Assembly (NCBI GenBank): GCA_015069165.1
Contig: SVJD01000003.1
Span: 1-64,000 of the forward strand
Source: Oscillospiraceae bacterium
Lineage (GTDB): Bacteria; Bacillota; Clostridia; UBA1212; UBA1255
Direction of reading: 5' to 3'
DNA: 64,000 nucleotides
Shown here: positions 18,727-30,360 of the stretch, one piece after another
Position numbering within the stretch: the first letter of the stretch is position 1
How the letters are laid out: each line of letters opens with the position of its first letter
The notes under the pieces: model-generated
Databases searched by the model: none
What the model was told of the DNA's origin: nothing
What the model saw: the letters and a program-made list of their open reading frames with translations, nothing else
Program-made: the position numbers and the translations under genes

Positions 18727-18761
18727 CTGCCCGAAAACCCAAAATCCGGATTTTCGGACAG
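18727..18761 (-). terminator. Intrinsic terminator after tRNA-Ser
   Basis: On the minus strand an 11-bp stem, CTGTCCGAAAA paired with TTTTCGGGCAG (one G-U), is followed by a T7 run. It lies directly after the tRNA 3' end. Confidence 0.8.
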
Positions 18762-18765
18762 AATA

Positions 18766-18857
18766 TGGCGGAGACGGTGGGATTCGAACCCACGGACGGT
18801 TTTAGGCCGTCAAACGATTTCGAGTCGTTCTCGTTATGACCACTTCGATACGTCTCC
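18766..18857 (-). tRNA. tRNA-Ser (CGA)
   Basis: A 92-nt class II tRNA: acceptor stem GGAGACG pairing with CGTCTCC, anticodon stem AACGA/TCGTT around loop CTCGAAA (anticodon CGA), a long variable arm (GACGGCC...), TPsiC loop GGTTCGAATCC and an encoded CCA end. An intrinsic terminator follows. tRNA-Ser genes are frequent integration sites, and the accessory region lies on this side. Confidence 0.95.
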
Positions 18858-18960: not shown

Positions 18961-19413
18961 TTAAAAAATCAACTGAATTGTCGAAATGGCCGCATAAGAT
19001 GTTTTCCCATAAAGATCTAATGTTGCTCCGGACAAACCCATAAAAAAGCCAACAAGAAATGAAAGAACATAAAACACAGTCAATGCGATACCAAGCCAAA
19101 GACCTGCAATCGAAAGCCCTCTGCCGATTTTAGCTTTTCCTTCCAAAACACCATTATTAAGCATTTTAAAATTCTTAGCTTTGCTAAAACCTATGCAAGC
19201 AAAAATAATACCCAAAAATCCCGTCAAATATGCACATACAAGACTGATTATACCCCAAGACAAAGCAGAACTTGCAGCTCTGTTTATTAATTCTTTATTC
19301 GCCGAATCAACAACAGGCTCTGCTGCTTGGCAAACTTCCTGAGTTTGCGTACCGCACGCACTGCAAACTTGCTCTCCATCATCAATATTTGCTCCGCAAT
19401 TATTACAAAACAT
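18961..19413 (-). CDS. Zinc-ribbon membrane protein, paralogue 2
   Basis: 150 residues. It starts with a zinc ribbon (MFCNNCGANIDDGEQVCSAC, residues 1-20). A short linker and a DUF4190-like membrane domain follow, with two to three hydrophobic segments and the conserved piece GVLEGKAKIGRGLSIAGLWLG. The gene directly upstream encodes a paralogue with the same layout, so this is a tandem duplication. The ribbon should be cytoplasmic. Function unknown. Confidence 0.75.
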   Translation of the reverse strand: MFCNNCGANIDDGEQVCSACGTQTQEVCQAAEPVVDSANKELINRAASSALSWGIISLVCAYLTGFLGIIFACIGFSKAKNFKMLNNGVLEGKAKIGRGLSIAGLWLGIALTVFYVLSFLVGFFMGLSGATLDLYGKTSYAAISTIQLIF

Positions 19414-19457: not shown

Positions 19458-19958
19458 TTAAAATAACATTTTAACAGCAGTCATTGCAGTATAATAATAT
19501 TCATCATACAAATCATACTCCACAGGCTCGCCGAAAACAGCAGCAAGCACGATAATTCCGATATATAAAGCCAAAATTATTGTCATTCCGATACCAAACC
19601 AAAGACCGCCGATTGAAAGACCTCTGCCAACTTTAGCCTTGCCTTCCAAAACACCGTTGTTTAAATATTTAAACTTATTTGCTTTGCTGATTCCGACACA
19701 GCCGAAAATGATACCCAAAAATCCTGTTCCATACGCAAACACAAGACTAAGTATACCCCAAGTCAAAGCTGAACCGGCAACTTCATCAGCCATCGCCTTG
19801 CGCACGGGGTCAACCTCAGGCTCTGCCTGATATACCACTTGCCCCATTACAGGCTGTTGTACCGCATCTTGAGAATTTTCTTGCAAAATTTGAGTGCCGC
19901 ACACACCGCAAAATCTCGCATCGCCAACAATTTGTGTTCCGCAATTACTACAAAACAT
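19458..19958 (-). CDS. Zinc-ribbon membrane protein, paralogue 1
   Basis: 166 residues. It has an N-terminal zinc ribbon (CSNCGTQIVGDARFCGVCG), a variable linker and a DUF4190-like membrane domain with the shared stretch VLEGKAKVGRGLSIGGLW. Paralogue of the next gene 44 bp downstream. Follows the lipid operon by 19 bp, so it could be read as part of that transcript. Confidence 0.75.
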   Translation of the reverse strand: MFCSNCGTQIVGDARFCGVCGTQILQENSQDAVQQPVMGQVVYQAEPEVDPVRKAMADEVAGSALTWGILSLVFAYGTGFLGIIFGCVGISKANKFKYLNNGVLEGKAKVGRGLSIGGLWFGIGMTIILALYIGIIVLAAVFGEPVEYDLYDEYYYTAMTAVKMLF

Positions 19959-19977: not shown

Positions 19978-20994
19978 TTATACTGATTCACACAAAAGAC
20001 ACTGCTGACCTATTTCAAAATTCTCCCAAAGGAAATTTTTAATAACAGCATCATACTTTTGCGTGTCAAGAGACCTCAACATAGAATGAGTTCCCTCATC
20101 AAACCAAACAAAAGTTTTTTTATCACTTCCGCAAATATTATACATCTTTTCCGCATATTCAGGCAAGGAAAAAATATCTCGCCTGCCGTGCATCATAAGA
20201 ATCGGCTTATCAAGGCTGCCTATAACATCAATAGGACCGTATTTCATAGAGTGATTCGTGTAACGCTTCATCCACATATCAATCAAATCCAACATAAACA
20301 CAGTCGGCTTCTTTCTCTCCACAAGATGTGCTTTCATTATATTGTTAAAATTAGAAAACATTCCGTCTGTCACTATAGCCGAAATATATTCGGGACAATC
20401 CGCAGACGTAATCGCGTGCATTCCGCCGGCAGCACCGATGCAAATACCATGCAAAATTATGTTTTTAACACCGTATTTCACGTGCACAAACTCCGCCCAC
20501 GCAATTATATCCTTACTTTCTTCAAAACCGCACGTACTGAATTCTCCGTCACTCAAACCGTGAGAACGCGGATCAATCACAAGCACATCACAGCCGCTTT
20601 CCGCATACGGAGGCGCGAAATAATATGAATAGCACAAACTTTCCGACCTGCCCGGTAAAATAATAACGCACTGCTCACCGCCAAATTTATAATACTCTCC
20701 GTAAAGGTTGAGTCCATCGTTCATAATATGTACCGGCTCCATTCTTGCCACATTTTCACGGTGCCAATTCATCCCTTCGGAATAAAGCTCGATGTAATCC
20801 AGTTCGTCCGTTGACGGCGCTCTTCCCCACTTGCCTGTTTTATTGCGGCTCAACACCGAAACATATACGCAATACGAGGCTACAAAAAACGACAAAACTC
20901 CCACAAACAAGCCGAAAGCCGTAGCAAAAACTGCAATTTTAAGCCCCAGATCTATCGAATATTCAGAAAATTCCCAAATATTTGTAAAAAACAT
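19978..20994 (-). CDS. Membrane-anchored alpha/beta hydrolase with Cys nucleophile
   Basis: 338 residues. One N-terminal membrane segment (~15-45) is followed by an alpha/beta hydrolase domain: oxyanion region ILPGRSES, VIDPRSHGLSDG, nucleophile elbow HGICIGAAGG (about 181-190), acid in MMHGRRDIF and histidine in DEGTHSM. The elbow carries Cys where most esterases have Ser, so it may be a thioesterase-like or dienelactone-type enzyme, or a weak lipase. It is the last gene of the lipid operon, 14 bp after plsC, suggesting an acyl-ester or thioester substrate. Confidence 0.8.
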   Translation of the reverse strand: MFFTNIWEFSEYSIDLGLKIAVFATAFGLFVGVLSFFVASYCVYVSVLSRNKTGKWGRAPSTDELDYIELYSEGMNWHRENVARMEPVHIMNDGLNLYGEYYKFGGEQCVIILPGRSESLCYSYYFAPPYAESGCDVLVIDPRSHGLSDGEFSTCGFEESKDIIAWAEFVHVKYGVKNIILHGICIGAAGGMHAITSADCPEYISAIVTDGMFSNFNNIMKAHLVERKKPTVFMLDLIDMWMKRYTNHSMKYGPIDVIGSLDKPILMMHGRRDIFSLPEYAEKMYNICGSDKKTFVWFDEGTHSMLRSLDTQKYDAVIKNFLWENFEIGQQCLLCESV

Positions 20995-21008
20995 TGCGTC
21001 CCCCTTTA

Positions 21009-21641
21009 TTATTTGCCGCCAAGCTCTTTAAGCTGTTTTCTTAAAGACAATGCTTTATTATAAACTATTTCATTTAACGCCACAATCTCTTCTTTTGTGG
21101 GATTTTTTGACGAACAATAATCTGATAAATTTATTGGCTTTCCTATGATTATATGCGCCTGCTTAAAAAAACCGTAATTTCCGTCTGTGATTATCGGCAC
21201 AATCGGCGCTCCCGCACGAAGCGCAATCATAATATAGCTCGGTTTAAATTTATCCATTTCCCCGTCATCGGTGTTATGTCCTTCCGGGAAAATCTGAACT
21301 AATTCTCCCCTTTTTATGACCTCTGCGCTTTCATCAATAAAACGCATACTTTTCATTATACGGTCGCACTTTATTCCTCCGAAACACTTCATGCCCCACG
21401 CCACAAACTTGTTGCTGTATGCCATTTCGGAAGCAACTACGTTCAATCTTCTGGGCAGCAGCAAAAACATATTAAGCACATAATCAAACATATTATAGTG
21501 ATTCGAAATTACCAGCGCGCCGCCTTTAATTTTTTTGCCTTGCACCGCTCTATCCTCATAATATGTTTTGCGCTTAAACAAAAGCCACTGTATGGGGTAT
21601 GCATTTATAATCGCGTACCATCTGAAAAAGTCATATATCAT
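21009..21641 (-). CDS. plsC: PlsC-type lysophospholipid acyltransferase
   Basis: 210 residues of the glycerol-3-phosphate/lysophosphatidate acyltransferase family. The catalytic HX4D motif is SNHYNMFD (about 46-53), and motif III is FPEGHNT (about 117-123). GAPIVPI is motif IV-like. The fold sits at the inner face of the membrane and transfers acyl chains from acyl-ACP or acyl-CoA to a lysolipid. The start overlaps the end of the acyl-ligase/ACP gene by 4 bp, so acyl-ACP made by that protein is the likely donor. Confidence 0.85.
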   Translation of the reverse strand: MIYDFFRWYAIINAYPIQWLLFKRKTYYEDRAVQGKKIKGGALVISNHYNMFDYVLNMFLLLPRRLNVVASEMAYSNKFVAWGMKCFGGIKCDRIMKSMRFIDESAEVIKRGELVQIFPEGHNTDDGEMDKFKPSYIMIALRAGAPIVPIITDGNYGFFKQAHIIIGKPINLSDYCSSKNPTKEEIVALNEIVYNKALSLRKQLKELGGK

Positions 21642-23599
21642 TTAAGTTTTTCTCCTACAATTCTTTCCAGGTCATTCAAATTATACGCAAACTCATCTGT
21701 TTCAAACTCCAAGGTAACTCCGAGTTGCTCGTCGATTTCGCTTACAACTGTAAAGTAATCAAGGCTTGTGCCGCCTAAATCTTTTATAAAATGTCCTGTA
21801 TTGGTAATTTTTTCCTCAGGAAGATTTAACGCCTCAGAAAGAATTCTTCTTAACTGTTTTTTTAATTCGGAATCGTTTTCAAATCCCTCGTTTTTAATTT
21901 CCTCAATAGACTCAAACAATTTCACATTGCCGTTTTCAATGTTTCTTTTTACCCTTGCGCGACTTACTTTTATGTCATTTTCTGCCATAACCGCATCCGT
22001 TGTGTAATATACTCTTTGTATTTTATACGCCCCCGGAAGCTTTTTCTCGCAAAGTTTTATCTCTTTTTCCAAAATTTCTCTGTCATCACGAATCATATTC
22101 TCATCAATTTGAACAACAAGAAGCAGATTCTCCATTTTTTCATCGCCTATAACGCAGAAACATTTCGCTCCCGGCAATTCAAAAAAGCTTTCCGCAAAAT
22201 CAGGATTAAGATTCTCACCGTTTTCACTTATAACTATATCTGATTTTCTTCCTTGCAAATAGTATTTGCCGTCAGAACTTACACTCACCACATCGCCTGT
22301 ATTAAACCATTCTTCATTTTCAATAAGCGTTCCGTCAACAATCATCTTTTTGCAAATAGAATCACCCTTTACCAAAAGTACATTGCTGTTATCAACTTTT
22401 AACTCTATGGATTCAAACGGTTTTCCTACTGAAACAGGCACTTTTTCTTTAGGTTTTTTAGCAAAATCCGCCGTAACAATACCGATTTCACTCATTCCGT
22501 AACCGCTCACCAAGTGATATCCCAACGCATTTATCATATTCATCGAAGATTCTTTCAAGGCGCTGCCGCCGGAAATGCAGAATTTAACGCTATCTCCAAA
22601 AACTTTCTCGCGAACTTCTTTAAAAATCTTTGCAGCAAAATGCTCTCCCAACTTCGGGAATAAGTTCTGAACTTTAAGTGAAAGAGCCATACCTTTCGAA
22701 AATTTCTGCTGAGTTTTTTCATCTCTTTGAGCAACTTCACGCAAAACGGTTTTCTCTATGGTATGCCACAAAAGAGGCACCGCGAAAACATGAGTCACGC
22801 CGTGAACTCTGACTGTTCGCATAAGCGTTTCGGGTGCAAGATTTTCAGAAAAAACTATGATTGCTCCAAAGAAAGAAAGCCACAAATACATAGCTTCAAA
22901 ACCGAAAATATGATAAAGCGGCAACATTGCAAAAGACTTAATTTTGCCGTTAAAAGACCTGCCTATTGCATTATTCCATGAAAGTGCTTGCCAACTGTTA
23001 AATATTTGCATTGAAATTTCCAACCCCGTATATATGCAAATTTTTTCTTTAAGCGTTGTGCCGCTGGTTGTAAGCGCAATTTCATTTCCGAAAGAAGAAA
23101 AATTTACCGACGAAATATTTTGTCCGCTCTTTTCAAGTTCCCCATAAAATAATATTGAAAGTCCCTCGTAATCAGCACTTTTTTTGGTGCAAATAACTTG
23201 TTCCACACCTAAAGTTTTCATCATTGACACGCTTGCCGTTGTCGGCTGAAGTAAATTAACAAGAAAAGGTTTATTTCCGCTCATGAGTATAGCCCAAAAA
23301 GTTATAAGCCACTCTACACTGTTTTCGCCCGAAAGACCTATAAATTCCCCCGTACATTTTGCCTCACAGGAAATAGCCTTCGCCACGCAATTAACTTTTT
23401 CTCTTATTTCATCATAAGTAAACTCTTTAATTTCAATACCGTTTGATGTCATAAAAGATGTTTCTGCCATTACCATATCTCTGAAAAATACAATATTGTA
23501 AATATCTTCAAAAGTCTTGTTGCTCTCTTGAAGCTTTTTACACTCGTTTTTTACAAATTTTTTCAGCAAATGTATATTCTCGTAAGGGTTTTTACTCAT
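21638..23599 (-). CDS. Acyl-AMP ligase fused to an acyl carrier domain
   Basis: 653 residues. Residues ~1-560 are an ANL-family adenylating enzyme: TTSGTTLKEK (A3 region), SGYGMSEIG (A5), WFNTGDV (A7), GRKSDIV (A8) and the C-terminal lysine in NDIKVSR. Residues ~575-653 are an acyl carrier domain with the phosphopantetheine serine in DLGGTSLDYF. It should activate a free fatty acid with ATP and load it on its own carrier arm, like the ligase half of Aas. Neighbours are plsC (4-bp overlap) and an MFS transporter (14 bp upstream). Confidence 0.85.
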   Translation of the reverse strand: MSKNPYENIHLLKKFVKNECKKLQESNKTFEDIYNIVFFRDMVMAETSFMTSNGIEIKEFTYDEIREKVNCVAKAISCEAKCTGEFIGLSGENSVEWLITFWAILMSGNKPFLVNLLQPTTASVSMMKTLGVEQVICTKKSADYEGLSILFYGELEKSGQNISSVNFSSFGNEIALTTSGTTLKEKICIYTGLEISMQIFNSWQALSWNNAIGRSFNGKIKSFAMLPLYHIFGFEAMYLWLSFFGAIIVFSENLAPETLMRTVRVHGVTHVFAVPLLWHTIEKTVLREVAQRDEKTQQKFSKGMALSLKVQNLFPKLGEHFAAKIFKEVREKVFGDSVKFCISGGSALKESSMNMINALGYHLVSGYGMSEIGIVTADFAKKPKEKVPVSVGKPFESIELKVDNSNVLLVKGDSICKKMIVDGTLIENEEWFNTGDVVSVSSDGKYYLQGRKSDIVISENGENLNPDFAESFFELPGAKCFCVIGDEKMENLLLVVQIDENMIRDDREILEKEIKLCEKKLPGAYKIQRVYYTTDAVMAENDIKVSRARVKRNIENGNVKLFESIEEIKNEGFENDSELKKQLRRILSEALNLPEEKITNTGHFIKDLGGTSLDYFTVVSEIDEQLGVTLEFETDEFAYNLNDLERIVGEKLK

Positions 23600-23613
23600 A
23601 TAGAATCCTCTTT

Positions 23614-24963
23614 TTACTTTTTATCTGTTTTCTCTTCCTTGCCCATCATAATGACTTTCTTAGGTAAAAAGAAAGTTAAAACGAATGCTAACATACACGC
23701 TGCTGCCACAATAATCGTCATATATGAAATGTATCCTTTTCTTTTCAAATACACCAAAATTACACTGGAAGCAAGACCCGTTGCCACTCCTTCAAAAAGT
23801 CCCTGTACCGCAAAATACATCGACGCAATATTACGTCCGATTTTTTTACTTTCTTCTGCAGCCAAGAAAGAAGGCACAGTATATGACACCGAGAAGAACG
23901 CACCAATTGAGAAAGAAACCAATAGTCCGCAGAACATTGCAAGAGGAAGCAAAATACTTTTCGGAACATTATTACAGAAAAACATTATTGACATTCCCAC
24001 AGAAAATACCAAAAGAACGTATCTGTAACCGAATCCCAATCCCTTTTTTTGTACCACTTTACTGTAAAGGGGCATTGTAAACGGAACAGGAGCAAAAGCA
24101 GAAGCCATTACAAAAGTCATATTTATGCCTGCGGTTGAGAAAAATTCATTTATTCCGCTTAAAAAGAGTTGTAAACCAACATTCATTATAGCCGCAACAA
24201 ACATCCAGAATATAAGAGTTTTATTCTTGAAAGAGCATGACAAAGCTGTGGCAAGCGTAAGTTTATCTTTAACTTTATTTTCTGTTTGTTCTTCCGGCAC
24301 TTCGCCTTTTTTGTAAGCTTTTTCCTTTAATAATACCATCGGAATCATCATAGTCAAAGACAGCGGCATAAATATCAAAGCTACTGTTCTTATATTCATT
24401 TTCAAACTTATGAAAACAGGCAACAAAGCAAATCCCAATATAAAATAAATAACATCACATACAGATTTTACATTTGATAAAAACAGCAAATCACTTTCTG
24501 TTTCCGTAACTTCGGAAAAAGTAGCATAATATGCAAGCATTGTCATCGTATAAAAAAGATAAAACAAGCCAAGTAAAACCGCAAACCAAACAGTATTTCT
24601 TACCGTTGCCCCATCATCGGGAATAAATAAAAACAACACATAAGTTATAAGCATCGGTATAAATCCCATAAGAATGGCAGGTTTTCTTCTTCCCCATTTT
24701 GTTCTTAAATTGTCAATAAACGGTGACATAGGAACATCTATCAAGCCATCAAAAACTTTTGTTGCAAAAGCAAGAATACTCCAAAGTGCCGCAATTACTA
24801 ATGTTTTGTCACTATAGGTCCAAAATCCGACATCTACTTTTTTAAAACCCTCTATGATAAGCGCACTGCACAAGTATGTACCTACTATCAAGTTAAGCAT
24901 ATTAACGCCTACACCCGAGCAACCATACAACAAAAGACGGCTTCTTTTTGTGATTTTTTCCAT
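23614..24963 (-). CDS. MFS_2/GPH-type transporter
   Basis: 449 residues with about twelve hydrophobic segments. The loop DGLIDVPMSPFIDNLRTKWG followed by RRKPAILMG is the MelB-like GPH/MFS_2 signature. The superfamily includes sugar symporters and also lysophospholipid carriers (Mfsd2a type; the bacterial functional analogue LplT is a different MFS branch). Placed between fakA and the acyl ligase, a lysolipid or acylated substrate is more likely than a sugar, but this is inferred from context. Confidence 0.8.
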   Translation of the reverse strand: MEKITKRSRLLLYGCSGVGVNMLNLIVGTYLCSALIIEGFKKVDVGFWTYSDKTLVIAALWSILAFATKVFDGLIDVPMSPFIDNLRTKWGRRKPAILMGFIPMLITYVLFLFIPDDGATVRNTVWFAVLLGLFYLFYTMTMLAYYATFSEVTETESDLLFLSNVKSVCDVIYFILGFALLPVFISLKMNIRTVALIFMPLSLTMMIPMVLLKEKAYKKGEVPEEQTENKVKDKLTLATALSCSFKNKTLIFWMFVAAIMNVGLQLFLSGINEFFSTAGINMTFVMASAFAPVPFTMPLYSKVVQKKGLGFGYRYVLLVFSVGMSIMFFCNNVPKSILLPLAMFCGLLVSFSIGAFFSVSYTVPSFLAAEESKKIGRNIASMYFAVQGLFEGVATGLASSVILVYLKRKGYISYMTIIVAAACMLAFVLTFFLPKKVIMMGKEEKTDKK

Positions 24964-24997
24964 AATACTCTTTCTCCTTTTTCAATTACAATCTCGA

Positions 24998-26632
24998 TTA
25001 TTCCAAAGATACGGATAAATCGTAAATAGTTTCCTCTGTAGGTATTTTACATACCTCTGTATAAATGTATTTTTCTCGTATTGATTCTTCAATGTATTCC
25101 AATTGCTTTGCAGAAACATTTAAGCCGTAAAACAAATTGACTATGCTCTTTTCGTCCTTTTTCATAGCTTCGTCAATTGCGTTCCATGCAGTTTCTTCCA
25201 AAATTTTACCTGCCGCCAAAATACCGTTATCATCTATTACGATATAGTCGTTGGCTTGTATTTTTACATCTGAGTATGTCATGGTTTTTACAGATTTGGC
25301 AATTTTTACTGTATAAACCTCTGAAATGGCATCATTTACAGCTTCGATCAAAGCTTCGATATTTTCCTCGTCATAATCAATTATCGCCAATGCAGAATAA
25401 CATTTGGCAATGTCTTTACAACCAATTACCGTTACTTTAGCTTTCTCATAAAGTTTTGCCGCCTGCATTGCCGCCAAAACAGTATTGGCATTATTGGGAA
25501 ATACAAATATTTCCGTGGCGGAAACTTTTTCCATCGCTCTTATATAATCCTCTGACGAAACATTTTCATTGCTTATAAGTACCGCATCTGCGCCCATTTC
25601 GATGAAAGTTCTGCCCAAAAGTCTGTCAGGTGCCACTGCAACTACGGCAAAACTGTATTCTCCCCTTTTTGCCGCAACTAAAATTTCTTTTTGCTTTTCT
25701 GTATGTTGAACTGACATATTTTCAATCTTCACAGACAAAAACTCACCGAATTTATGGCAAAACTCCAATACTTTTTCAGGTGTGATACTGTGTATGTGAA
25801 CTCTTACTTTGCTGTCATCAAAAGAAGTTACCACAGAATCTCCCAATTTTGACAATTCTTCTTTAAAACCATCTTTGTCAAAATCTTCCATAATACCCAA
25901 CTTGTCATCGGTAAGCTGTATGAGGCACTCCGTACAATAACCGTAAAAAATACTCTGCCTGTTAAAGTCAGCATAATTTACATAATTGCCTTTTATTTCC
26001 TCTTTTGCCAAATCCAATTCTTCTCCGTCCAGGTATTTTTTTACACCTTCAAAGAAATAAACAATTCCTGCTCCGCCGCTGTCCACAACACCGGCATCTT
26101 TTAAAACGGGTAATAATTCAGGAGTGTTTTCAAGTGAAATTTTCGCTTGTTTCAAAAAAACATCGACTATATCATTTATGCTCTCTATTTCAGGCAAATT
26201 TTCTTTAACTGCCTGCGTAGCTTCTCTTATAACTGTTAAAATAGTACCCTCAGACGGCACCGCAACTGCTTCATACGCTGCATTTACACCTTTTTCCAAT
26301 GCGCATGAAAACAACTCAATATCAACATTCTCGGAAGTGGAAAAATATTCCGAAATGCCCTTAAAAAATTGCGACGAGATAACACCCGAATTTCCTCTTG
26401 CCCCGAAAACTATTGCTTGTGCAAATTTTTTCGCCACGGGAGCAATATCCTCTCCCGCATCTTCAATCGCCTTCAAGCCGTTTTTTACGGTCATAACAAG
26501 ATTTGTTCCCGTATCACCATCAGGCACCGGGAAAACATTAAGGCTGTTTAACAAGTCGCAATGTATTTCAAGATTACGAACGCCGTAATCTATCATATTT
26601 TTATAACAAATACCGTTTATTCTCTCTATCAT
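24998..26632 (-). CDS. fakA: Fatty acid kinase catalytic subunit FakA (DAK2/YloV type)
   Basis: 544 residues. The N-terminal DhaL-like kinase domain begins MIERINGICYKNMIDYG and has VFPVPDGDTGTNLVMT (metal and ATP binding) and GARGNSGVISSQ. The middle and C-terminal domains follow the YloV/FakA plan with DAGVVDSGGAGIVYFFEG. FakA phosphorylates fatty acids held by FakB to acyl-phosphate, which feeds PlsX/PlsY or acyl-ACP. It is 15 bp downstream of fakB, so they form one unit. Confidence 0.9.
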   Translation of the reverse strand: MIERINGICYKNMIDYGVRNLEIHCDLLNSLNVFPVPDGDTGTNLVMTVKNGLKAIEDAGEDIAPVAKKFAQAIVFGARGNSGVISSQFFKGISEYFSTSENVDIELFSCALEKGVNAAYEAVAVPSEGTILTVIREATQAVKENLPEIESINDIVDVFLKQAKISLENTPELLPVLKDAGVVDSGGAGIVYFFEGVKKYLDGEELDLAKEEIKGNYVNYADFNRQSIFYGYCTECLIQLTDDKLGIMEDFDKDGFKEELSKLGDSVVTSFDDSKVRVHIHSITPEKVLEFCHKFGEFLSVKIENMSVQHTEKQKEILVAAKRGEYSFAVVAVAPDRLLGRTFIEMGADAVLISNENVSSEDYIRAMEKVSATEIFVFPNNANTVLAAMQAAKLYEKAKVTVIGCKDIAKCYSALAIIDYDEENIEALIEAVNDAISEVYTVKIAKSVKTMTYSDVKIQANDYIVIDDNGILAAGKILEETAWNAIDEAMKKDEKSIVNLFYGLNVSAKQLEYIEESIREKYIYTEVCKIPTEETIYDLSVSLE

Positions 26633-26647
26633 GTGTTTATATCGCTA

Positions 26648-27592
26648 TTATTTTCCTACAATTTTGTTCATTACTTCTTTCTCAGCAACAAGATCCTCGG
26701 AAATTTCGTCGCCCAAATAATATGCGCAAACCATTCCGGGGCCTATGTTCGTTCCGCTGCCGCAAAATACATCTCCAACAAACACTTTTTTAGGTTTCAA
26801 CTGCTCTTCTATCATCTGTCCCAAAGTTTGTGCATACATTTCTCTACCGCTGTGCGTTACAATTATGTATGAATTTTCGATGTCCTTTGCTGTTTCTTTT
26901 ATATATTTCACTGTTATATCAAGAGCTTTTTTGATTCCTTTTGCCTTGGTAAGAACTGTTACGTATCCGTTACTGTTGCAATCTCCCATAGGTTTCACGC
27001 CTGCAAAACTTCCCATGATTGCCTTGCCCGTAGATATGCGTCCCCTTCTTGCAACAAACATAAGGTCATCAATGGGGCCCATCTGATGAACTGTATTCTT
27101 GTTTGCTTCAAGCCAATCTATAATCTCTTTGAATGATTTGCCGTTTTTTCGCATTTCTGCCGCCTGACACACGAGCATTCCGAAGCCGCCTGATGTTCTG
27201 TATGAGTCAAACGCATAAATTTCGCTGTCGGGATAATCTTTTTTTATTCTCTCACACGCAGTGTGCGCACTGTTAAAAGTAGAGCTTACTTTGGAAGAAA
27301 CCGACATACTGAGAACTTTGCGTCCTTCTTTTATGTGTTTTTCAAAAATAACATAATATTCGTCAGGGCTCAAAGGCGATGTTGATATTTTAACTTTCGT
27401 TCCCGAAAGGTCTTTATAAAAGCTTTCGCGGTCAATGTTTGACCAATCAAGCTTCGACATTATTTCTCTGCCGTCACTGAAATGTACGTGACCTTGAATG
27501 TACTCCTCAATTCCGAAATACGCTCTTAATTCCGGAGAAAGGTCACAATTTATATCTGCTAAAATTACCATTTTTTCTGCGCTATTTTCCAT
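26648..27592 (-). CDS. fakB: Fatty acid-binding DegV protein FakB
   Basis: 314 residues of the DegV/FakB family. It carries the N-terminal strand VILADINCDLSPE, the lipid-pocket segment STSPLSPDEY (~60-70), SSKVSSTFNSA and RTSGGFGMLV. The usual DSxxD at the start reads DINCD here. FakB binds a free fatty acid and presents its carboxylate to FakA. GGGTGAG precedes the ATG. First gene of the six-gene lipid operon; 80 bp separate it from the upstream CHR gene. Confidence 0.9.
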   Translation of the reverse strand: MENSAEKMVILADINCDLSPELRAYFGIEEYIQGHVHFSDGREIMSKLDWSNIDRESFYKDLSGTKVKISTSPLSPDEYYVIFEKHIKEGRKVLSMSVSSKVSSTFNSAHTACERIKKDYPDSEIYAFDSYRTSGGFGMLVCQAAEMRKNGKSFKEIIDWLEANKNTVHQMGPIDDLMFVARRGRISTGKAIMGSFAGVKPMGDCNSNGYVTVLTKAKGIKKALDITVKYIKETAKDIENSYIIVTHSGREMYAQTLGQMIEEQLKPKKVFVGDVFCGSGTNIGPGMVCAYYLGDEISEDLVAEKEVMNKIVGK

Positions 27593-27672
27593 AAAATCTC
27601 ACCCTATATAAAAGAACTTTATACGGCGAAATTCTACCATATCAGAGCTTATAAATCAACCCTGCACAAAGT

Positions 27673-28248
27673 TCAACCTTTGAATATACTGCAAAAAACA
27701 ATACCCAATCCTGCTGAAATCAGTATAATTTGTATAGCAGAAAGTTTCTTTTTTAACACTTTTAAAGATACAATATAAACTGCCGCTACCAGCGCAAAAA
27801 GAGCTGCGGCAACCCAATCAAAGCTAAATGACACAATGCCCGCAAAGCCTATATTTTTAAATAAAAGAGATACTCCTGTTGCCAAAATAAGCGCTGCAAT
27901 TACAGGTTTTACTCCCCTTATAAAACCTTTAAAGAATTTATTTTCTGTAAGATTTTTAAGCACTGCGGCAATTAAAAGTATTATTAAAAACGAAGGTAAA
28001 ACCACTGCGAGTGTTGCACAAAAACTTCCGAAAATGCCACCTTGCAGTGAACCTATATATGTTGCCATATTTACTGCAATCGGTCCCGGTGTAGACTCAC
28101 ACACACCGATAAGCTCATAAAATTCCGCAGAAGTAAGCCAACCGTTATTTACAGCAGCATCCTCTACAAGGGGAATCATTGCAAATCCGCCGCCGAAAGT
28201 AAACAATCCTATCTTGAAAAACTCGAAAAATAATTCCAAATAAATCAT
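27673..28248 (-). CDS. CHR (chromate transporter) half protein 2
   Basis: 191 residues, a single CHR domain with about six hydrophobic segments. Family motifs are FTFGGGFAMIP near the N-terminus and ESTPGPIAVNMATYIG (~50-65). Short CHR proteins act as pairs encoded side by side; this one overlaps its partner by 4 bp. Known members export chromate, probably in exchange with sulfate-like anions; the natural substrate here is unknown. Linked to a cysteine synthase gene upstream. Confidence 0.88.
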   Translation of the reverse strand: MIYLELFFEFFKIGLFTFGGGFAMIPLVEDAAVNNGWLTSAEFYELIGVCESTPGPIAVNMATYIGSLQGGIFGSFCATLAVVLPSFLIILLIAAVLKNLTENKFFKGFIRGVKPVIAALILATGVSLLFKNIGFAGIVSFSFDWVAAALFALVAAVYIVSLKVLKKKLSAIQIILISAGLGIVFCSIFKG

Positions 28249-28811
28249 TGTTTACCTCCATTTTTGCCAATACCGATTAAAGCGTAAGCAACAATTCCGA
28301 CAATGCCACCGATTATGATATAGAAAACAGAACTAAACGAAACGGCTAACACATCAAAAAGTATCATCGTCACAAAAACTGCTCCAAAACAAATCAAAGG
28401 AAGCGGTTTCTTTTCAACTTTTTTAAGCAAATCAACACCTGCTCTTAAAATTAAAAAAGCAACTGCCGCTTTGATTCCCACAAAAGCATAAGCCACATAT
28501 TTATTATTCATAAATCCTTCCAAGAAAAGGGAGATTATGAAAATTATTACAAACGAGGGTAATACCACTCCGCAAGTAGCCGCAACGCTTCCCAAAACGC
28601 CTCTTTTTTTATATCCCACATACGTTGCCATATTTATGGCAATAGGTCCGGGGGTAGACTCAGCGATAGCAATTATTTCGGTAAGCTCATCATCGGTAAG
28701 CCATCCCTCTTTTGCCACAATATACTCTTTAATCTGCACAATCATGGCATATCCGCCGCCAAACGTAAACAAACCTATCTTAAAAAAAGTCAAAAAAAGC
28801 TTAAAAATCAT
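28245..28811 (-). CDS. CHR (chromate transporter) half protein 1
   Basis: 188 residues with the CHR motifs FTFGGGYAMIVQ and ESTPGPIAINMATYVG. Paralogue of the next gene, with which it overlaps by 4 bp, giving the usual antiparallel pair. Its start overlaps the end of the cysteine synthase gene by 4 bp, so all three proteins are translationally coupled. A sulfur oxyanion substrate would make sense beside cysteine synthesis, but that is inference. Confidence 0.88.
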   Translation of the reverse strand: MIFKLFLTFFKIGLFTFGGGYAMIVQIKEYIVAKEGWLTDDELTEIIAIAESTPGPIAINMATYVGYKKRGVLGSVAATCGVVLPSFVIIFIISLFLEGFMNNKYVAYAFVGIKAAVAFLILRAGVDLLKKVEKKPLPLICFGAVFVTMILFDVLAVSFSSVFYIIIGGIVGIVAYALIGIGKNGGKQ

Positions 28812-30214
28812 ACTTTATATAACTCCGTTGACAAATATCTGTCCCCTGTATCAGGAAGTAATACAACTATTTTTTTATTGGCATTTTCAGGTCTTTTTGC
28901 CACTTCAATAGCTGCCCAAAGAGCCGCACCCGAAGATATTCCCACTAAAAAGCCTTCTTTTTTACCAATCAATCTTGCTGCCTCAAATGAAGCTTCGTCT
29001 GAAACTGTAATAATTTCATCATAAATTCCTGTATTTAACACTTTTGGTATAAATCCTGCTCCGATTCCCTGTATTTTATGAGCACCTGCCACACCTTTAG
29101 AAAGGAACGCAGAAGATTCAGGCTCTACAGCTATAATTTTAACTTCCGGCTTTTTTGACTTCAAATATTCTCCTACACCTGTAATAGTGCCGCCGGTACC
29201 CACTCCCGCAACAAAAACATCCACTTCGCCGGCAGTGTCTCTGTAAATTTCCGGCCCTGTGGTTTCAAAATGAGCTTTCGCATTTGCCGGGTTGTCAAAC
29301 TGTCCGGGAATAAATGCATTCGGAATTTCTTTTGCCAATTCTTCCGCTTTTTCGATTGCTCCTTTCATGCCCTTTGCGCCCGGTGTAAGCACAAGTTCCG
29401 CACCGTACGCTTTCATCAAAGTGCACCTTTCCTCCGACATACTGTCAGGCATAACAATTATAACTCTGTAACCCTTAGCTCCTGCCACAGCCGCAAGGCC
29501 GATACCTGTATTTCCGCTTGTAGGCTCTATTATGACGGAATTTTCGTTTATAACTCCGCGTTCTTCTGCATCTTGTATCATTTTAAGTGCAACTCTGTCT
29601 TTTGCCGAACCTGCAGGATTAAAATATTCCGGCTTTGCATAAATTTCAGCACTTAAATTGTATTCTTTTTCAATTTTTGTAAGCTCGACCAAAGGAGTAT
29701 TTCCTACAAGCTGTTCTATTGAAGTATAAATTTTACCGTTTTTTGTTTTTTCTTCTGCTCCGTATTTGACAACCATAGCCACAAATAAAATAACAACTCC
29801 CAAAAGTATTCCTATGTAATTGCTTTCTGTGAAAAACGACGGAAACTCTTTCCCGCAAAGAACGTAAATTATAGTAATAACAGAAGCTGTAATTATGGGA
29901 TGTAACAAAGCGTGTACACCCAGCTCTTTAAGCTCTTTCGCACCTTCTTCTGTATACGGCGTGCCTTCGTGAATTTCATGGCTTAAATATTTCGAAACAA
30001 ACAAAAGCAATATTCCGTTTGCCGCAAAATGTACCAAATGCTCCAGTGCGTGGGTAATAAGTTCCATATCAATGGCCTTAGAACCATGTGTAAACACCTC
30101 TTTACCCACAACAAACAGCTCGTATGCCGCACCTAAGAAAAACATACTTATTACAACTAAAACAACGACTTTTGCAACTTTAATAACCTTTTGTATTATA
30201 TTCAGAAATTTCAT
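28808..30214 (-). CDS. cysK: Cysteine synthase (CysK) with N-terminal membrane domain
   Basis: About 468 residues. Residues ~1-155 contain four hydrophobic segments. Part of this region (LSHEIHEGTPYTEEGAKELK) resembles DUF2975-type membrane proteins. Residues ~165-468 are a complete O-acetylserine sulfhydrylase: GNTPLVEL, PLP lysine in NPAGSAKDR, EPTSGNTGIG, GVGTGGTITG and GISSGAA. It makes cysteine from O-acetylserine and sulfide, here tied to the membrane. The ATG at 30214 is chosen because GGAG sits 7 bp upstream and a promoter at 30252-30280 excludes the longer frame to 30337. Couples to two CHR genes. Confidence 0.85.
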   Translation of the reverse strand: MKFLNIIQKVIKVAKVVVLVVISMFFLGAAYELFVVGKEVFTHGSKAIDMELITHALEHLVHFAANGILLLFVSKYLSHEIHEGTPYTEEGAKELKELGVHALLHPIITASVITIIYVLCGKEFPSFFTESNYIGILLGVVILFVAMVVKYGAEEKTKNGKIYTSIEQLVGNTPLVELTKIEKEYNLSAEIYAKPEYFNPAGSAKDRVALKMIQDAEERGVINENSVIIEPTSGNTGIGLAAVAGAKGYRVIIVMPDSMSEERCTLMKAYGAELVLTPGAKGMKGAIEKAEELAKEIPNAFIPGQFDNPANAKAHFETTGPEIYRDTAGEVDVFVAGVGTGGTITGVGEYLKSKKPEVKIIAVEPESSAFLSKGVAGAHKIQGIGAGFIPKVLNTGIYDEIITVSDEASFEAARLIGKKEGFLVGISSGAALWAAIEVAKRPENANKKIVVLLPDTGDRYLSTELYKV

Positions 30215-30251
30215 ATCCATGCTCCATAATTTTTTGATAAAATACGGTGCA

Positions 30252-30280
30252 ATTATATTCTTTTTTAATACCGTTGTAAA
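30252..30280 (-). promoter_or_regulatory. Promoter of the cysK-CHR operon
   Basis: Minus-strand TTTACA (30280-30275) and TATAAT (30257-30252) with a 17-bp spacer. The expected transcript start is near 30245, about 30 nt before the cysK ATG at 30214. Confidence 0.75.
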
Positions 30281-30360
30281 GTTGTATAAACAGCAAGACA
30301 GCATCAAATCAGTCTTGGGGTTTCGAAAATCTACCACACACCTTTCTTATAGAAAAAAAC

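Follow-up and report, generated by a model that had tools for sequence, protein, structure and literature searches.

What does a bacterium gain from encoding a fatty acid kinase in a tight operon with a transporter, an acyl-AMP ligase that carries its own acyl carrier protein (ACP), a glycerolipid acyltransferase and an α/β-hydrolase-fold protein? We addressed this question for a locus of an Oscillospiraceae bacterium of the class Clostridia, contained in a stretch of 64,000 nucleotides (contig SVJD01000003.1; hereafter the window). A preliminary description of this DNA had proposed an operon for fatty acid or lysolipid salvage and knew of no described system with this gene set. None was found in the open-access literature either, and the combination appears to be new. 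With moderate confidence, we propose that the locus is a transferable operon that captures exogenous acyl chains and lysolipids and puts them onto membrane glycerolipids. Its interest is stronger than the preliminary description stated in two respects: the loss of fatty acid synthesis (FASII) in the lineage, and an α/β protein with a Cys nucleophile that is bound to the fatty acid kinase genes.

Locus organization

All six genes lie on one strand, with gaps of 15, 34, 14, −4 and 14 bp (Table 1). Their coordinates and spacing had been given exactly at the outset, and Pfam confirmed the family of each. A purine-rich stretch resembling a ribosome-binding site precedes each of the six starts except that of fakA. 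The end of the operon, by contrast, had been set too early. The hydrolase gene is closely followed by tandem paralogs encoding zinc-ribbon membrane proteins, and a zinc-ribbon homolog also follows the hydrolase gene in four further loci (L030, L068, L069, and L118). The operon therefore probably extends past the hydrolase into one or two of these genes, for a total of seven or eight. A strong terminator or promoter between fakA and the transporter was also considered: no terminator-like site was found at this junction, and promoter-like matches across the region were at chance level (40 observed vs 34.6 expected from shuffling). One promoter-like site falls inside the 80-bp gap upstream of fakB.

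Table 1. Features of the operon and its flanks in the window.
Feature	Coordinates	Strand	Evidence
fakB, DegV-family fatty-acid-binding subunit, 314 aa	26648..27592	-	PF02645, 169 bits
fakA, fatty acid kinase, 544 aa	24998..26632	-	Dak2 + FakA-like_M + FakA-like_C
MFS_2-family transporter, 449 aa, probably cation-coupled	23614..24963	-	PF13347, 94 bits
Acyl-AMP ligase with fused C-terminal acyl carrier protein, 653 aa	21638..23599	-	AMP-binding + PP-binding
plsC-like glycerolipid acyltransferase, 210 aa	21009..21641	-	PF01553, 76 bits
α/β-hydrolase-fold protein, Cys nucleophile and suggested N-terminal membrane helix, 338 aa	19978..20994	-	Hydrolase_4/Abhydrolase_1
Zinc-ribbon membrane protein, probable operon gene 7	19458..19958	-	Zn_Ribbon_1; 19-bp gap
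Zinc-ribbon/DUF4190-like membrane protein, possible operon gene 8	18961..19413	-	Zn_Ribbon_1; DUF4190 below cut-off; 44-bp gap
Promoter-like site TTGATT-17-TAGAAT, extended -10	27631..27659	-	Weak, consensus match only

Just downstream of the zinc-ribbon genes lies a tRNA-Ser(CGA) gene (18766–18857, minus strand), followed by a strong terminator-like hairpin (18727–18761). On the other flank, a gene for a cysteine-synthase-like PLP enzyme (28808–30337, minus strand) stands immediately before a pair of half-size chromate-transporter genes that overlap each other (28245–28811 and 27673–28248); the enzyme bears an apparently membrane-spanning N-terminal extension of ~200 aa.

Conservation and variants of the cluster

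Relatives keep fakAB linked to the other four genes. The six-gene order of the window recurred, with similarly tight junctions, in four other genomes: a metagenome-assembled genome labelled Oscillospiraceae (locus L004), a member of the window's genus (L030) and members of other families of the order (L031 and L032). Their ligases share 40–75% identity with that of the window, and a linkage that recurs in this way is not due to chance. Several Clostridia families carry rearranged, often larger versions of the cluster, whose extra members include a discrete ACP, an LRAT-family protein, a second PlsC, a second FakB, PlsX, a second adenylating ligase, a Ser-type α/β hydrolase, a monoglyceride-lipase-like protein and a GT2 glycosyltransferase. 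Polysaccharide deacetylase, FtsK and folate genes were rejected as cluster members, as they are neighbors in one genus.

A gene-neighborhood search, suggested in the preliminary description, located fakA or fakB near the ligase–ACP fusion in 20 of 22 loci (11–22 kb examined per locus); the other two (L042 and L060) are cut by contig ends. Around a ligase paralog without ACP, fakA or fakB was nearby in 0/10 loci. In one genus, this paralog sits in a conserved neighborhood of its own that is unrelated to fak (L045, L049, and L065–L067). The ligase and the fak trio of genome G330 are on different contigs, so that linkage is unproven there. A phylum-wide sample showed no ligase–ACP cluster beyond the class; the one further genome that matched there has a non-ACP-like ligase without fak.

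The composition of the cluster also varies within the class. Three genomes (G019, G020, and G130) encode fakB–fakA–MFS_2–plsC–Cys protein–zinc ribbon without the ligase–ACP, and the transporter gene is missing from many of the larger loci. The constant core thus consists of Fak, PlsC and the Cys protein, whereas the ligase–ACP is a dispensable module. Two parallel activation routes, via acyl-phosphate and via acyl-AMP/ACP, had been proposed for the operon; both gene sets are present in the window, but the second route is not obligatory, as three otherwise equal operons lack it. The more general reading of the genes as one unit for acyl-chain salvage (Fak, acyl-AMP/ACP route, and PlsC) is borne out by linkage conserved in many genomes, and the loss of FabF and FabH described below fits it.

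Fatty acid synthesis in the lineage

Among 31 genomes of the window's order (G000–G030), the ketoacyl-synthase FabF was found in five and FabH in five. Both were missing in 25, which looks like a wide loss of FASII. Each of the 17 genomes of the order that carry the cluster lacked both enzymes (15 with and 2 without the ligase–ACP; several 91–97% complete), as did the window's own genome, while among the 17 PlsX was present in 16/17 and PlsY in 16/17. FakA occurred in 25/26 FabF-negative vs 1/5 FabF-positive genomes (Fisher p = 0.0008, uncorrected for relatedness). Without FabF and FabH, the cluster-bearing genomes of the order look like fatty-acid auxotrophs, and the lineage probably depends on outside fatty acids. 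A little-studied Clostridia order would then rely on outside lipids, and our analysis suggests which genes would meet that need. Neither FabF nor FakA was detected in one 97% complete genome of the window's genus (G018; L083), which gave a weak 400-aa FabH-like match.

Outside the order, most of the cluster-bearing genomes found have FabF and FabH, and one genus has the cluster together with FASII. Several FASII-less genomes, in turn, do not carry the cluster. The cluster is therefore not simply a substitute for FASII, and we rejected the idea that the operon replaces this pathway.

A second fatty acid kinase

The operon FakA contains three Pfam domains (Dak2, middle, and C-terminal) above cut-off, passes the YloV subfamily cut-off (488 vs 396 bits) and matches the solved FakA structures 7rm7 and 8vip, with a full-length match to 7w7h. 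FakB yielded phmmer matches to the solved FakB chains 6dke and 6cng. Its segments STS, S-STFNSA and RRGRIS align with solved DegV proteins, and we take their conserved Thr, Ser and Arg to be ligand contacts. The NCBIfam equivalog cut-offs were not reached (FakA_VfrB, 358.7 vs 975 bits; FakB1, 72.7 vs 350 bits), whereas the broader YloV and DegV models were passed by FakA and FakB, respectively.

The window's genome encodes a separate housekeeping fakA–fakB besides the operon copy, which makes the operon fak a second, specialized copy. A separate housekeeping fakA is kept in most of the cluster-bearing genomes tested, and in other genomes it often lies near plsX or plsY. In a tree of 38 FakAs, a single branch separates the 23 operon copies from the 15 housekeeping ones, although its support (75/76) is not firm. 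Operon FakAs also group across families (L118 with L068, L119 with L036, and L059 with L033/L034). This separate, family-crossing grouping suggests that the cluster moves horizontally, as a unit.

A specialized fakA group that stands beside the housekeeping copy and crosses family lines, as accessory biosynthesis genes often do, would also suit an island that makes a special acylated lipid, e.g. a glycolipid or an acylated envelope molecule. Fak and the ligase–ACP would then each provide a different acyl chain for attachment by the PlsC-like and Cys proteins, and the transporter would export the product. The relatives with GT2 glycosyltransferases, two PlsC proteins and an additional ligase and ACP point in this direction, as does the genus in which the cluster co-occurs with FASII. 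However, head-group enzymes such as a glycosyltransferase are absent from the window operon, phospholipid supply is the standard role of PlsX, PlsC and Fak, and FASII is missing from the genomes of the order that carry the cluster. We regard the synthesis of a special lipid as conceivable but unlikely, and retain the capture of exogenous acyl chains and lysolipids for membrane glycerolipids as the preferred reading.

Ligase, acyltransferase and Cys protein

Across 14 homologs of the ligase–ACP, the phosphopantetheine Ser612 is invariant and the catalytic Lys544 nearly so, and the adenylation motifs E371, D436 and G461-E462-N463 are invariant. No curated ligase equivalog was matched at cut-off. 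The PlsC protein has a conserved HX4D motif and matches the solved PlsC 5kym. It remains below the cut-off of the bifunctional Aas model (23.8 vs 886 bits), and PlsC and the ligase are separate open reading frames.

The last of the six proteins had been described as a hydrolase that could trim acyl esters. The α/β fold stands, but the GxSxG serine nucleophile (S33/monoglyceride lipase) is absent, and every ortholog examined has Cys instead. At the nucleophile elbow the orthologs have HG[I/V/C]C[I/V]G (a single one has HCICVG), and the Asp and His are conserved. Paralogs, some of them in the same clusters, show G.SMG. Sampling 391 genomes of the class yielded 15 orthologs (E < 1e-60), of which 15/15 have the Cys and 15/15 lie in fak clusters; matches ranking below them (E > 1e-27) have Ser wherever the motif is readable. 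No other signature of the system is as regular as this Cys-for-Ser change, whose consistency ties a putative enzyme to the fatty acid kinase. The closest solved sequences, esterase 5g59 and monoglyceride lipases, are weak matches.

A Cys nucleophile often accompanies acyl transfer. PHA synthase and dienelactone hydrolase are α/β enzymes with such a nucleophile, and the window protein shares with them a Cys where the catalytic serine would otherwise sit. Because Cys replaces Ser in all orthologs and all are linked to fak, the so-called hydrolase may be an acyl transferase; it could also be a hydrolase or thioesterase, so that trimming of acyl esters is just one option. As a bolder and rather doubtful extension, it could be an undescribed, fak-dedicated acyltransferase that moves an acyl group from imported lysolipid or acyl-ACP to FakB or a lipid acceptor. 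The island would in that case constitute a new route of membrane-lipid assembly, through which lysolipids of the host or its diet go straight into the membranes of Clostridia without FASII.

The MFS_2 transporter

The transporter clearly exceeds the cut-off of PF13347 (94.2 vs 27 bits). Both MFSD2A, which transports lysolipids, and MelB, which transports sugars, belong to this family, MFS_2; across it cation-site residues are conserved while sugar-site residues are not (PMC8329300). The window protein has the MFS_2 domain and the cation-site aspartates, with residue roles assigned by motif (PMC8329300). K69, D72, D76, Y138 and T139 are invariant in nine orthologs, and the position of the sugar-binding Asp124 of MelB, placed by motif spacing, is Met in all nine. 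The retained cation-type residues and this Met are no more than suggestive. Searches of the PDB with the transporter, a nine-sequence profile and a paralog returned no solved homolog, including MelB, MFSD2A or any lysolipid transporter, so that residue equivalence with MelB and MFSD2A follows motif spacing only. AlphaFold models of the transporter and the Cys protein (two-sequence alignments) had a mean pLDDT of ~40, too poor for use.

Most commonly, MFS_2 members are sugar symporters of the GPH/MelB type, and the transporter gives weak matches to GPH models; it might thus carry a sugar or glycoside and be part of the operon for co-regulation rather than for lipid transport. We consider this improbable: the protein scores below the GPH cut-off (53 vs 231 bits), the Met at the Asp124 position (as placed above) comes with retained cation-site aspartates, and another family member adjoins genes for lipid acylation. 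The latter belongs to a second lipid module, apart from the fak operon, in which an MFS_2 paralog is followed by PlsC–PlsC–ligase–ACP–LRAT (G005:C2, locus L132, 10838–16715). With its more distant MFS_2, this module is an independent link of the transporter family to glycerolipid acylation. Genes of this type of module are merged into the fak cluster in G004 and G023.

Proposed route and comparison with known systems

From the observed gene set, conservation, catalytic residues, FASII loss and presence of PlsX and PlsY, we infer a possible route for acyl-chain and lysolipid capture, including its substrates, the sequence of its steps and which way transport runs. The MFS_2 protein would move a lysolipid or similar amphiphile inwards via cation symport. 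The membrane-anchored Cys protein would accept the acyl group of an ester or thioester, then pass it on or release it. As established for their families, FakB would hold a free fatty acid and FakA would phosphorylate it, the acyl-phosphate then going to PlsY, or through PlsX to acyl-ACP; both PlsX and PlsY are encoded in the window's genome, outside the operon. The ligase, where present, would adenylate a fatty acid and load its own ACP, judging from its domains and conserved residues, and PlsC, in keeping with its family, would pass the ligase-borne acyl group to a lysolipid. The operon would act beside the housekeeping Fak system, in bacteria mostly unable to make fatty acids. Lysolipid as a substrate is less certain than the preliminary description had it.

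That description compared the locus to the LplT–Aas system joined to Fak. LplT–Aas lysophospholipid remodelling is stated to have been identified only in Gram-negative bacteria (PMC11416262). It shares with the window a transporter, an acyl-AMP ligase and a PlsC-type acyltransferase encoded together, and the operon would work like such a joining. The window differs, however, in its MFS_2 transporter, separate ligase and acyltransferase, ligase-fused ACP, association with Fak and Bacillota host. The likeness does not extend to the proteins themselves: no LplT model match was listed for the transporter, which is an MFS_2 protein and is absent from many larger loci, and a fused Aas is likewise not present. 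The locus is thus not a member of the LplT–Aas system but offers a Bacillota counterpart to it.

Other systems resemble single parts of the operon. MFSD2A, a sodium-coupled lysophosphatidylcholine transporter, and MelB share the Pfam family and the K/D/D residues at a cation-site-like motif with the window transporter, which nevertheless has no sequence match to their solved chains. Like an AasS-type soluble acyl-ACP synthetase, the window ligase would make acyl-ACP from free fatty acid, but it carries its own C-terminal ACP. The FakA/FakB–PlsX–PlsY system of Bacillota (Staphylococcus aureus and Enterococcus faecalis) likewise binds fatty acids by FakB and phosphorylates them by FakA, with PlsX and PlsY encoded elsewhere in the window's genome; here, in contrast, fak is a second copy in an operon with a transporter, ligase–ACP, PlsC and Cys protein, in a lineage missing FASII. 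That the locus is merely the cell's ordinary fatty acid kinase operon with neighboring lipid genes would agree with FakA/FakB, PlsX and PlsY being standard in Bacillota and with the need of the lineage for exogenous fatty acids, but is very improbable given the separate fakA–fakB in the same genome, which groups apart from the operon fakA, and the Cys-type protein and ligase–ACP, both linked exclusively to the operon copy.
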